Below are positions 1,188 to 26,254 of a stretch of DNA of 64,000 bases, piece after piece. The stretch's first letter is position 1; every line of letters begins with the position of its first letter. Source of the stretch: Leifsonia shinshuensis (lineage in GTDB: Bacteria; Actinomycetota; Actinomycetes; Actinomycetales; Microbacteriaceae); assembly GCF_013410375.1 (NCBI RefSeq), contig NZ_JACCFL010000001.1:3844001-3908000 (forward strand), read 5' to 3'. The notes below the pieces were generated by a model. That model made no database searches. It was not told the origin of the DNA and worked only from the letters and a program-made list of their open reading frames with translations. Position numbers and translations under genes: made by a program.

Positions 1188-2195
1188 TCAGTCCGCCTTG
1201 GTCGAGAACGCCGCGTCGAACGCCGCGGCGGGCGGGGTGATCGCGTTGAGCTCGCGCACGAACGCGATGGCCTCCGGCGCGCCCTGGAGGCGGTCCATGC
1301 CGGCGTCCTCCCACTCGACCGAGGTCGGGCCGGTGTAGCCGATGAAGTTGAGGGCGCGGAAGATCGGCTCCCACGGGACCTCGCCGTGAGCGGTGGACAC
1401 GAACGTCCAGCCGCGGCGCGGGTTCGCCCAGGGCAGGTGCGAGCCGAGGACGCCGTTGCGGCCGTCGAGGTTGGTGATCGACTCCTTCACGTGGACGTGG
1501 AAGATGTGGTCGGCGAAGTCGAGCACGAACGCCACCGGGTCCAGCTGCTGCCACATGAAGTGCGACGGGTCGAAGTTGATGCCGAAGCTCTTCCGGTGGC
1601 CGATCGCCTCCAGCGTGGCCTTCACCGTCCAGTAGTCGTAGGCGATCTCGGACGGGTGCACCTCCAGGGCGAACCGCACGCCGACCTCCTCGAACACGTC
1701 GAGGATGGGGTGGAAGCGGTCGGCGAAGTCCCGGTAGCCGGCGGCGATCCACTCGTCGGAGGCCGGCGGGAACATCGCCACCGCCTTCCAGATGGAGGAG
1801 CCCGTGAAGCCGGTGACGGTCCTCACGCCGAGCGCGGCGGCCATCCGGGCGGTCAGCTTCAGCTCCTCGGCGGCGCGCTGCCGCACGCCCTCGGGGTCGC
1901 CGTCGCCCCACACCCGGTCGTTCAGGATGTCGCGGTGCCGCTCGTCGATCGGGTCGTCGCAGACGGCCTGGCCGGCGAGGTGGTTGGCGATCGTCCACAC
2001 CTTCAGGCCGTTGCGCTCCAGGATCTCCTTCCGGGACTGCACGTACGCGGCGTCGTCCCAGCGGGAGACGTCCAGGTGGTCGCCCCAGCAGGCGATCTCC
2101 AGGCCGTCGTAGCCCCACTCGCCGGCGAGCCGGGCCACCTCCTCGAACGGCAGGTCGGCCCACTGGCCGGTGAACAGGGTGATCGGTCGGGTCAT
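1188..2195 (-). CDS. Sugar phosphate isomerase/epimerase family TIM-barrel protein
   Basis: This 335-residue protein has the xylose-isomerase-like TIM-barrel pattern. Candidate metal ligands are the Glu in ALEVHPSE, the Asp/His in NFDPSHF, the His in FHVHVKE and the Glu in SVEWED. Family members isomerise or epimerise keto sugars and inositol intermediates. It is the last gene of operon A, 11 bases after the Gfo/Idh/MocA dehydrogenase, and that pairing is common in 3-keto-sugar and inositol-type pathways. A role in salvaging the oxidised sugar released by the C-glycoside enzymes is inferred from position. It is more distant from the deglycosidase alpha subunits than those are from each other. 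Confidence 0.85.
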
Positions 2196-2206
2196 GGTGG
2201 TCTCCT

Positions 2207-3424
2207 CTACACGTTCGCGGGAATCGCGGACTCGACCGCGACCGGAGCATCAACAGCGACCCAGGCCGAGTCCTTCGCCGCGCTCTCCTCCACGGCGGCG
2301 AGAACACGCTGCACGGCCAGGCCGTCGGCGAAGGTCGGGTCGAGCTCGGTGCCGTGCGCGATGGCGGTCACGAAGTCCACCACCTGGTGCGAGAAGCCGT
2401 GCTCGTAGCCGAGCATGTGCCCCGGCGGCCACCAGGCCGACACGTAGGGATGCTCCGGCTCGGTGACCAGGATGGTCGTGAAGCCCTGCAGCTCGGCGGG
2501 CGCGGTGCGGTCGTAGTAGCGCAGCTCGTTGAGCCGTTCCAGGTCGAACGCGAGCGCGCCGTCCGTGCCGGACACCTCGATGGTGAGGGCGTTCTTGCGG
2601 CCGGTCGCGAACCGGGTGGCCTCGAACGAGACGAGCGCGCCGCCGTCGAGCCGGCCGGTGAAGATCGCCGCGTCGTCCACGGTCACCTCGCCCAGCTCGC
2701 CGGTAGCGCTGCCGGTGAAGCCGGACCGCTCGCCCAGGACCGGACGCTGCCGGATGATCGTCTCGACCGTCCCCGACACGCGCGTCACGCGCTCGCCGGT
2801 CACGAACTGGGTCAGGTCCACGATGTGCGCGCCGATGTCGCCGAGCGCGCCCGAGCCGGCGTGCTCCTTCTGGAGGCGCCAGCCGAGCGGCACGGACGGG
2901 TCGACCAGCCAGTCCTGGCGGTACGCGGCACGGACCTGCCGCACCTCGCCGATGGTCCCGCGCGCGATCAGGTCCTGCAGCAGCGACACCGCGGGGACGC
3001 GGCGGTAGGTGAAACCGACCATCGCGCGCACACCGCGCTCGGCCGCGCGCTCGGCGGCGGCGGCCATCGCCTCGGCCTCCTCGACCGAGTTGGCGAGCGG
3101 CTTCTCGCACAGCACGTGCTTGCCCGCGTCCAGCGCGGCGATGGCGATCTCGGCGTGCGAGTCGCCGGGCGTCACGATGTCGACCAGGTCGATGTCGTCG
3201 CGCGCGATCACCTCGCGCCAGTCCGTCGCGTGCTCGGCCCAGCCCCACTTGGCGGCAGCGCGAGCGACCGCCTGCTCGTTCCGGCCGACGACCACGGCGA
3301 GCTCCACGGCCTCGGGGAGGTCGAACACCCGCGGCGCCTGCCGCCAGCCGACCGAGTGCGCCGCACCCATGAAGCCGTAGCCGATCATGGCCACCCGCAG
3401 CGGCCGCCCAGAGGACTGCGTCAT
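2207..3424 (-). CDS. Gfo/Idh/MocA family NAD(P)-dependent oxidoreductase
   Basis: This 405-residue protein has an N-terminal Rossmann fold (GYGFMGAAH near residues 14-22), the family signature CEKPLANS and the C-terminal-domain motif GDIGAHIVD. The family oxidises or reduces ring hydroxyls of sugars and inositols. The DgpA enzyme of puerarin metabolism belongs to this family and makes the 3-keto sugar. The ATG overlaps the stop of the upstream beta-subunit gene (ATGA at 3421-3424), so the two are probably translationally coupled. A close paralogue is at 43252-44415. It may oxidise the glycoside at C3 or reduce the released 3-keto sugar; sequence alone does not decide. Confidence 0.9.
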
Positions 3425-24732: not shown

Positions 24733-24760
24733 GGTGCTCTCCTGCGGTCTCTCAGGTGGG

Positions 24761-26254
24761 TCAGGCGGGGATGGACTCGGTGGTGGCGCCGCGCAGCGCG
24801 CCCGGCTCGTCGGACAGCCGGCGGTTCGGCAGCAGGATCGACGCGACGACCCCGACGAGGTAGGTCGCCGCGAGCGCGACGAAGATCGGGACGAAGACGC
24901 CCTGGTAGACCCGGGCGATCTCCTGCTGGAGCGCGGGGGTCTGCGCGTGGGCGATGGCAGGTGTCAGGGTCGCGGCGTCGAGCCCGGCCGGGAGCAGCGC
25001 GGCGACGCCCGCGCCGATCAGACCGCCGATCAGCGCCGTGGCGACGGTCGCGCCGACCTGGCGCACCAGGTTGACGCTCGCCGTGATCGAGCCCGTCTCC
25101 GCGCGCGGAACCGCGCTCTGCACGACCGCGACGATCAGGCTCATGAAGGCGCCCGTCCCGAGGCCGACGACGGCCATCGCGAGCGTCGGCGCCCAGAGCG
25201 GGGCGCCCGCGGGCAGCAGCGCCATCGCGCCGAGGCCGGCGGCCCCGAGGACCGTGCCGGCCAGCGGGTAGAGGCGGTAGTGGCCGGTGCGGCTGACCAG
25301 CCAGCCGGTCGCGAGGTTGCTGACCAGCATCCCGAACACCGTCGCGATCGGAACCAGCCCGGAGACGGTCGCGCTCGTCCGGTACGCCATCTGGAAGTAG
25401 GTGGGCAGGTAGGAGGTGATCGAGAATAGCCCGATGCCGACGATCGCCGAGATGACGGTGCCGGTCGCGACCGTGCGGTCGGCGAAGTGGGAGAGGTCCA
25501 CGAGCGGTTCGGTGACCCGGAGCTCCACGACGAAGAACACGGCGAGCGCGGCGGCCGCCACGACGAACGCGACGAACGCGGACGCCGCCTGCGCCGGATC
25601 GCCCACCCAGGCGACCGCGAGCACGAGCGCCACCAGCCCGACGGTGAGCGCGATCGACCCGGCGACGTCGAAACCGCCGCGCCGGCCGGGCTCGAGATGC
25701 GGGACGGCGACGATCGCGAGAGCCAGTGCGGCGACGCCGACCGGGGCGTTGATCCAGAACACCCACGGCCAGCCCCAGGTGTCGGTGATGATCCCGCCGA
25801 GGACCGGGCCGATCAGGATCGCGATCGGGAAGGCCGCGCCGATGATCGCCAGGAACTTGGGCCGCTGCCGCGGTGTGGTGGTCTCCGCGATGATCGTCTG
25901 CGACATGAGCTGGAGGCCGGCGGAGCTCATCCCCTGGACGACGCGCGCGACGATCAGCCAGACGATGCCGTTCGCGAAGCCGCAGGCCACGGACGCGAGC
26001 ACGAACACCGTCACCGAGCTGAGGAAGACGGCTCGCGGCCCGATCCGGTCGCCCAGCTTGCCCAGGATCGGCAGCAGGACGGTGCTGGCGAGCGTGTAGC
26101 CGACCACGATCCAGCTCATGTGCTCGAGCGCCCCGAGCCGGCCGGCGACCGTCGCGATCGCGGTGCTCACGACGGTGTTGTCGAGCGCCCCGAGGAACGA
26201 GACGGCGAGGAGGGAGGTGACGAGGAGGCGGAACCTCAGTGGCGAGAGCGGCAT
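24761..26254 (-). CDS. MFS transporter, DHA2 (EmrB/QacA) type
   Basis: This 497-residue membrane protein has about 14 predicted segments. The motif-A region LPILGKLGDRIGPRAVFL and the motif-C-like region GPVLGGIITDTWGWPWVFWINAP are typical of the DHA2 drug/H+ antiporter family. It is the first gene of operon B. It could export a toxic aglycone released by cleavage or import the glycoside; the family usually exports. Its promoter region (26353-26382) has a dyad of the kind bound by TetR repressors, although no TetR gene is nearby. Confidence 0.88.
   Translation of the reverse strand: MPLSPLRFRLLVTSLLAVSFLGALDNTVVSTAIATVAGRLGALEHMSWIVVGYTLASTVLLPILGKLGDRIGPRAVFLSSVTVFVLASVACGFANGIVWLIVARVVQGMSSAGLQLMSQTIIAETTTPRQRPKFLAIIGAAFPIAILIGPVLGGIITDTWGWPWVFWINAPVGVAALALAIVAVPHLEPGRRGGFDVAGSIALTVGLVALVLAVAWVGDPAQAASAFVAFVVAAAALAVFFVVELRVTEPLVDLSHFADRTVATGTVISAIVGIGLFSITSYLPTYFQMAYRTSATVSGLVPIATVFGMLVSNLATGWLVSRTGHYRLYPLAGTVLGAAGLGAMALLPAGAPLWAPTLAMAVVGLGTGAFMSLIVAVVQSAVPRAETGSITASVNLVRQVGATVATALIGGLIGAGVAALLPAGLDAATLTPAIAHAQTPALQQEIARVYQGVFVPIFVALAATYLVGVVASILLPNRRLSDEPGALRGATTESIPA

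Follow-up and report, generated by a model that had tools for sequence, protein, structure and literature searches.

Organization of the locus

C-glycosides withstand hydrolysis, and few enzymes cut the aryl C-C bond. The genome of Leifsonia shinshuensis, a single contig of 4.42 Mb, encodes four sets of alpha and beta proteins that resemble C-glycoside deglycosidases (CGDs) within the 64,000-nt stretch described here (contig positions 3,844,001-3,908,000; hereafter the window, in whose numbering genes are given). Profile, structure and residue comparisons support the view that these proteins are of the CGD type, with their catalytic residues kept, and that they are encoded beside GMC glycoside 3-oxidases.

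The CGD genes lie in two operons whose boundaries were drawn from gene spacing (Table 1). Operon 1 (15 genes, spacing -4 to 68 nt) is encoded on the minus strand, beginning at 18108 and ending at 1188; operon 2 (6 genes, spacing -4 to 31 nt) has the same orientation and extends from 26254 to 19305. As both are on the minus strand, they are co-directional and head to tail, and 1.2 kb separates the 5' end of operon 1 (18108) from the 3' end of operon 2 (19305). An earlier note on this DNA, which had put the two 3' ends about 1 kb apart, was mistaken on that point, but it had correctly placed a LysR gene between the operons (on the plus strand) and correctly listed two GMC oxidoreductases and a Gfo/Idh/MocA protein. 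The automatic open reading frames 4651-6171 and 5691-6986 begin too far out; starts that fit the homologs, at 5694 and 6809, give 4-nt overlaps. The gene at 3-1097 encodes what we take, from its translation, to be a ROK-family regulator-like protein, and the genes at 14906-15748 and 15752-16747, named in the same way, presumably encode ABC (ATP-binding cassette) sugar permeases.

Four CGD sets and their active sites

All four beta stretches scored above the curated cut-off (27.6 bits) of PF19906 (CGDB, C-glycoside deglycosidase beta), from 51.2 bits for set 3 to 115.3 bits for set 4. The four beta-type sequences that the earlier note had recognized, and had proposed to check in this way, were thus borne out. 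Its four TIM-barrel alphas were likewise upheld, for their nearest solved structures are CGD alpha chains: 7dnm_A for three of them and 8qrz_A for the protein at 21715-22677. A scan of the seven CGD proteins against NCBIfam gave no match. Alpha and beta genes adjoin with 4-nt overlaps in sets 2 and 4, are fused in set 3, and are separated in set 1, within the same operon, by a gene for an NTF2-like protein. The fused set 3 protein is 95% identical to a protein of Leifsonia sp. EB34, and its whole-chain matches to 8un2 and 8qrz have root-mean-square deviations of 14.9-16.0 A, so that the beta part may pack either on the alpha of its own chain or on that of a neighbour.

The catalytic and metal-binding residues described for the AgCGD2 alpha subunit are E147, H149, D179, H269, K271, E305 and E307 (PMC8563793), among which we counted E147, D179, H269, K271 and E305 as the five metal ligands, with His149 as the catalytic and Glu307 as a supporting residue. 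In an alignment of 139 alpha sequences, all seven were intact in the clades of set 1 (A1, 26/26), set 2 (A2, 25/25) and set 3 (A3, 23/23). Clade A4, to which set 4 belongs, has Gln for H269 in 26 of 26 sequences, solved 8QRZ included, and keeps the other six. Accordingly, all five metal ligands are present in the window's sets 1-3 and four of the five in set 4, and His149 and Glu307 are present in all four sets. A strict metal-ligand pattern would exclude set 4, but the family appears to tolerate Gln at this position, because 8qrz, titled a CGD in the PDB, has the same Gln. The set 1 alpha is identical to AgCGD2 at 14 of 14 inspected pocket and catalytic residues, and its beta partner retains Thr3, Gln112 and the conserved Tyr. 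For set 2, the MAFFT alignment is uncertain at AgCGD2 positions 241-249.

In PuCGE, replacement of beta Tyr39 by Phe abolished >99% of C-glucoside cleavage and left much of the O-glucoside activity (PMC10628242). The corresponding Tyr, which we equated with Tyr39 because the 7bvr_B match begins with an offset of 10, lies in a P-W/Y-Y-R motif and is present in all four window sets. In a survey of 138 betas, assigned to sets by nearest alpha and by tree, it was found in 98/98 betas of sets 1-4 and also in 20/20 betas outside the five sets recognized below. Furthermore, the ratio of nonsynonymous to synonymous substitution rates (dN/dS) of the seven window proteins against two relatives was 0.057-0.258, which suggests purifying selection on all four sets.

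Table 1. Genes and other features of the two-operon region and its border
Feature	Position	Strand	Basis or remark
ROK-family regulator-like gene	3-1097	+	adjoins operon 1 3' end
90-bp gap, set 5 site in 16 relatives	1098-1187		GATTCGTGCCGAATC copies at 1105-1119, 1145-1159
TIM-barrel sugar isomerase-like, candidate 2-hydroxy-3-keto-glucal hydratase (step 3)	1188-2195	-	PDB matches 8ro4, 2zds
Gfo/Idh/MocA oxidoreductase, candidate 3-keto-sugar reductase (step 4) or glycoside dehydrogenase	2207-3424	-	PF01408/PF22725
CGD beta, set 1, AgCGD2 beta ortholog	3421-3837	-	PF19906 52.9 bits; 7dnm_B E 1.1e-57
SnoaL_4/NTF2-like protein, distant LdpA relative	3847-4632	-	between alpha 1 and beta 1
CGD alpha, set 1, AgCGD2 alpha ortholog	4651-5694	-	7dnm_A E 1.1e-188; clade A1 with 7dnm
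CGD alpha, set 2	5691-6809	-	7dnm_A E 9.7e-58; clade A2
CGD beta, set 2	6806-7204	-	PF19906 52.9 bits; beta tree
GMC flavo-oxidase 1 (GMC1), glycoside 3-oxidase PsG3Ox ortholog (step 1)	7243-8865	-	Pfam GMC
Hydroxypyruvate isomerase-like TIM barrel, second hydratase/isomerase candidate	8862-9656	-	PF01261 135.8 bits
Small SnoaL_2/NTF2-like protein	9668-10039	-	PF12680
GH106-like (alpha-L-rhamnosidase-like) glycosidase	10036-12684	-	PF17132 26.8 bits, slightly below cut-off 29
GH3 glycosidase	12681-14903	-	PF00933/PF01915/PF14310
ABC sugar permease (presumed)	14906-15748	-	homologs across loci
ABC sugar permease (presumed)	15752-16747	-	homologs across loci
ABC solute-binding protein, operon 1 first gene	16816-18108	-	PF13416 102.9 bits
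LysR regulator between operons	18339-19274	+	PF00126/PF03466
Alpha/beta hydrolase (Abhydrolase_3), operon 2 last gene	19305-20219	-	PF07859
CGD set 3, single-chain beta-alpha fusion (beta ~1-135, alpha ~158-490)	20231-21712	-	
CGD alpha, set 4, Gln at H269	21715-22677	-	8qrz_A E 1.7e-98; DfgA 7bvs_A E 5.7e-58; clade A4
CGD beta, set 4	22674-23090	-	PF19906 115.3 bits; 8qrz_A N-terminal part E 2.4e-29; DfgB E 1.5e-19
GMC flavo-oxidase 2 (GMC2), pyranose/C-glycoside 3-oxidase group	23122-24732	-	8qve E 1.1e-113, 7qf8 E 1.6e-100, 7dve E 1.4e-98
Major facilitator superfamily (MFS) transporter, operon 2 first gene	24761-26254	-	PF07690 171 bits

The sets are old subfamilies

Besides the window's genome, 46 genomes were found to be carriers. 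Loci were fetched from 30 of these (the other 16, mostly with 1-2 matches, were left), and alphas and betas were retrieved from them with profiles built from the window. Alpha trees were made quickly for 139 sequences, after removal of three short fragments, and carefully for 95 chosen from these. With eight ungrouped rows set aside, a single branch separated each of five alpha clades from all other sequences in 100% of 200 bootstrap trees; two of the eight, G442a and G448b from other families, were placed within set 4. The alpha trees pair set 1 with set 3 as sister clades. A careful tree of 138 short beta sequences gave the same clades, except that the divergent set 3 betas G296 and G359 stood beside set 1. 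Matching alpha and beta clades usually hold one member per locus, across genera. Pairwise identities among the window's sets are 27-54% for the alphas and 29-45% for the betas. A recent duplication of the sets is ruled out by the trees together with the alpha identities, and the sets appear instead to be different, old and non-redundant subfamilies. Fusion of beta to alpha is found in 23/23 members of set 3 and 7/20 of set 5; in set 4 one subclade is fused, and the window's clade, G442 and G448 have separate genes. Judging from this distribution, fusion appears to have arisen more than once.

Distribution of the locus

PF19906 matches were counted genome-wide at E 0.001, with the window's genome, some set 5 betas and off-locus matches included. 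On this basis matches occurred in 9/28 genomes of the genus sample (eight with at least four) and in 24/349 of the family sample (18 with at least four, two with three and four with one). The order sample gave 16/396, of which five, including the window's, belong to the same family, and the phylum sample 5/396, with 3 over the cut-off, again counting the window's genome. Outside the family there were mostly one or two matches, the exceptions being G593, with five spread over small contigs, and G915, whose four betas lie within 3.7 kb. The locus is therefore rare and patchy. Among its carriers, however, four sets are ordinary: of 25 set 1 loci, the window's included, 22 hold sets 1-4 within the fetched stretch. 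The other three are G014 (set 4 elsewhere and fused), G053 (set 3 not found, set 4 elsewhere) and G342 (set 3 not found). The earlier note had called four sets an unusual number, which is true against genomes at large but not among carriers; the locus is real but not unique. All of 80 named loci picked by a set 1 match also had set 2 at >150 bits; at this threshold 61 had set 5, 40 had set 3 and 8 had set 4. In these counts the 10-kb flank often excludes sets 3 and 4, and some of the genomes also bear our G handles.

Two set 1 matches lie in records titled Stenotrophomonas maltophilia (L086, 87% identical to the window's set) and Planococcus (L116, 83%), and possibly reflect contaminated assemblies or transfer. 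The window's own genome holds a second locus about 180 kb off (L028:5215-7367, C1 ~4,048,766), with a CGD alpha/beta set of another lineage, shared with G578; the stretch around it has Gfo/Idh/MocA-like (33%) and ROK-like (32%) matches.

A fifth set, missing here

Set 5 is present in 20 of the 24 other set 1 loci, and in 16 of those 20 it lies between the ROK gene and the ortholog of 1188-2195. The window has a 90-bp gap at this site, and a set 5 protein used as query against its genome found nothing beyond parts of the window's sets 1-3; loss of set 5 by deletion is therefore likely. In the set 5 alphas (such as L140:13768-14838, from Arthrobacter globiformis, and L013:1376-2719) H149 is replaced by Gln and E307 by Gly in 20/20, and all five metal ligands are kept. 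The same was seen in 59/59 sequences of a second alignment, made of 58 sequences from named loci (some from the same genomes) and G007. Similarly, the set 5 betas have Ile in place of the Tyr in 20/20. Pfam gave no match at E 0.001 for 11 of these 20 betas and matched nine, three of them over the cut-off; of two set 5 proteins scanned directly, one reached 22.1 bits against 27.6 and the other, an alpha alone, gave no match.

As set 5 lacks the C-C-specific beta Tyr and the catalytic His and Glu but keeps the metal site, it may catalyse another reaction. This could be extended to the whole region, as an old kit of five co-travelling CGD subfamilies, each for its own glycoside class or chemistry, in which set 5 would catalyse, for example, O-glycoside elimination, hydration or epimerisation, and the NTF2 protein an accessory step on the phenolic moiety, through dehydration or lyase chemistry like that of LdpA. 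Taken as a whole, we regard this proposal as possible rather than probable. Two alphas outside clade A5, G043_15991 (L031/L032) and G255_3274 (L047), have Gln149 and Gly307 beside the Tyr-keeping betas G043_17001 and G255_4332; the three set 5 changes are thus not always linked, which speaks against such a kit. These two alphas may be intermediates, or the changed active site may have arisen in them separately.

Candidate partner enzymes

GMC1 is 71% identical to the Pseudarthrobacter siccitolerans protein with the PsG3Ox loop ASPVPLADD. We took as a glycoside 3-oxidase a GMC sequence of the POx group with the His440/Asn484 pair, and both GMC1 and GMC2 keep this pair, as the His of LHYQG and the Asn of NPTL, equated by motif. 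The protein at 1188-2195 matches 8ro4, titled '2-hydroxy-3-keto-glucal hydratase', at E 6.6e-34 over 311 residues, which makes it a candidate for that activity; its best structural-database match is 2zds (E 1.6e-151). The other TIM barrel, at 8862-9656, has an NCBIfam match to TIGR03234 of 157 bits, below the cut-off of 353, and both of these genes match other isomerase-like families rather than the CGD alphas. The Gfo/Idh/MocA protein has 4h3v and 6a3f as relatives and, distantly, DgpA (7xr9). As for the regulator genes, among the 24 other set 1 loci 23 have a match to LysR and 22 one to the ROK-like gene, the latter at 63-95% identity, with three of them covering <40% of its length.

The NTF2 protein at 3847-4632, of the NTF2 superfamily, is a distant relative of the lignin-dimer lyase LdpA and is 97% identical to a protein of Leifsonia sp. 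L25. Within the genus its gene accompanies the multi-set locus, and outside it does so more loosely. Eight of the 24 other set 1 loci and the A. globiformis stretch gave no match to it, so it cannot be essential, which also counts against the kit proposed above. In L065 (G915), from a distant actinobacterial family, an NTF2 protein 66% identical to the window's stands beside the four betas.

A probable function for the locus

In our view the region is likely to serve the catabolism of plant C-glycosides, and probably of some O-glycosides too, and the four sets would cover different attachment positions and aglycones. The order of steps, oxidation, elimination, hydration and reduction, is published (PMC13273386, PMC10628242). 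Glycosides or trimmed sugars would enter through the ABC or MFS transporter, and the GH3 and GH106-like enzymes probably strip outer O-linked sugars. The GMC flavo-oxidases would then form the 3-keto-glycoside, whose C-C bond one of the four CGD sets may split by metal-assisted beta-elimination, to give the aglycone and 2-hydroxy-3-keto-glucal. The protein at 1188-2195 would hydrate the glucal to 3-keto-glucose and the Gfo/Idh/MocA protein would reduce this to glucose, with the LysR and ROK-like proteins probably acting as regulators. Family membership, pairing, residues, orthology and conservation are read from sequence, and from them we infer each reaction, its specificity, transport and regulation. 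Family, residues and neighbours together make a good case for the class of chemistry; the division of substrates is what we infer beyond this.

The four subfamilies are most likely kept together because they cover different attachment positions and aglycones. By analogy, set 1 may be of the C8 type, like AgCGD2, which accepted only a C8-glucoside among the substrates tested, and set 4, of the DfgAB/8QRZ lineage, may be of the C6 type, like the more distant DfgAB. Assignments for sets 2 and 3 are uncertain, no member of either being tied to a characterized enzyme. AgCGD1 may be set 2 of A. globiformis, but only by elimination, as the other unfused pair with the His.

Several points weigh against this interpretation. 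The C6/C8 assignment draws on few characterized relatives, the four-residue insertion reported for the AgCGD1 beta was not seen by eye in the set 2 beta, and set 4, with Gln for His, could use its metal differently. For the hydration step, 2zds, which is nearer than 8ro4 to the protein at 1188-2195, is titled without an assigned function, and 3 of the 24 other set 1 loci have no match to this protein. Furthermore, substrates, expression and regulation are all predicted from the DNA.

The natural substrates could also be O-glycosides, because PuCGE cleaves 3-keto-phlorizin, a 3-keto O-glucoside, as well (PMC13273386, PMC10628242). PurA oxidises O-glycosides, and GH3 and GH106-like genes lie within the operon, so the sets might chiefly be 3-keto O-glycoside eliminases with C-glycosides as a side activity. 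We think this unlikely: the beta subunit and its Tyr, which are specifically required for C-C cleavage, are retained in all four sets, GMC1 is orthologous to PsG3Ox, and set 1 is 79-80% identical to AgCGD2, which is active on a C8-glycoside.

The fold, most active-site residues and the operons are common to the sets, as would be expected of redundant copies kept for enzyme dosage, but we give this idea very little credence given the low identities among both alphas and betas, the placement of every set in its own clade with members from several genera, and the pocket residues that differ between clades. Even less probable, to the point of being barely credible, is a biosynthetic locus that forms C-glycosides by the reverse lyase reaction. 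PuCGE can indeed add phloretin to 2-hydroxy-3-keto-glucal (PMC13273386), but the glycosidases, the solute-binding protein with two permeases, the oxidases and the hydratase-like gene point to catabolism, and no glycosyltransferase was recognized among the operon genes. A catabolic role in C-glycoside breakdown thus remains our preferred reading. The earlier note had also proposed a specialized locus for several plant C-glycosides; the CGD type, the residues, the GMC oxidases, the candidates for later steps and the old, distinct subfamilies are all consistent with this, and only the number of sets proved not to be unusual for such a locus. Beyond that first classification, the region now has an ordered subfamily structure, a fused set, a missing fifth set with changed residues, and the NTF2 gene. 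The single-chain fusion of set 3 could suit biocatalysis, and sets 1 to 5 form a series that offers a natural experiment on the residues that enable C-C cleavage.

Other features of the window

GATTCGTGCCGAATC palindromes at 1105-1159 and 26400-26454 border the two-operon region on both sides; the window has four matches with at most two mismatches, against a mean of 0.16 expected. A role as a shared operator of the region was dropped, since 43 exact 14-mer copies across the genome (control 0) mark it as a genome-wide repeat and not a locus operator. Rfam models gave no match in the window at gathering scores, and a tRNA-Ala (ggc) called by ARAGORN at 3305-3378, inside the Gfo gene, was taken as a probable false positive.

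Comparison with known systems

One of the closest known systems is AgCGD2 (AgCarB2-C2) of A. globiformis (PDB 7dnm/7dnn), of which set 1 is the ortholog (alpha 80% identical). The A. globiformis locus has a gene order similar to the window's and holds sets 1-5, but its stretch has no match to the window's NTF2, GH3 and GH106-like genes. Similarly, the PsG3Ox locus of P. siccitolerans 4J27 (PMC10646112) is the same locus as the window's, with homologs of LysR, the solute-binding protein (35%), the permeases, the hydroxypyruvate isomerase-like protein, GMC1, sets 1-3, NTF2, Gfo, the hydratase-like protein, ROK and MFS, and a fused set 4; the window differs in having GH3 and GH106-like genes and a split set 4, and in being without set 5. 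Set 4 is in the same clade as the fused CGD of Microbacterium testaceum (8qrz/8un2), with the same Gln at 269. However, 8qrz is one chain and the window's set 4 is two genes, and the window's own fused protein, set 3, is on the AgCGD2 side of the tree.

The DgpABC and DfgA-E gut systems share the CGD chemistry and family, and set 4 is on the DfgA branch. These systems oxidise through a Gfo/Idh/MocA enzyme, and the window's locus additionally has two GMC oxidases. Several CGD sets per genome are also described for Catenibacillus (four in C. scindens and six in C. decagia), where dgpA is non-adjacent and the dgpBC clusters are described as separate (PMC11170127). No printed description of a multi-set locus was found in the open-access papers searched (among them PMC12724307, PMC11069340, PMC10807413, PMC12997858 and PMC11323797), supplementary figures and most subscription papers being outside this search.

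In the parts of the published accounts that we consulted, two CGDs are named for A. globiformis, two alpha and two beta genes are reported for P. siccitolerans (PMC10646112) and one CGD is named for M. trichothecenolyticum, and these papers make no claim to an exhaustive list. The corresponding genomes contain five CGDB matches in 16.5 kb (one under the cut-off), five in 17 kb (none under the cut-off) and six (one under the cut-off, and all but one in a single cluster). Thus, actinobacterial carriers often keep four to five non-redundant CGD subfamilies per locus, more than those accounts list for the same locus.

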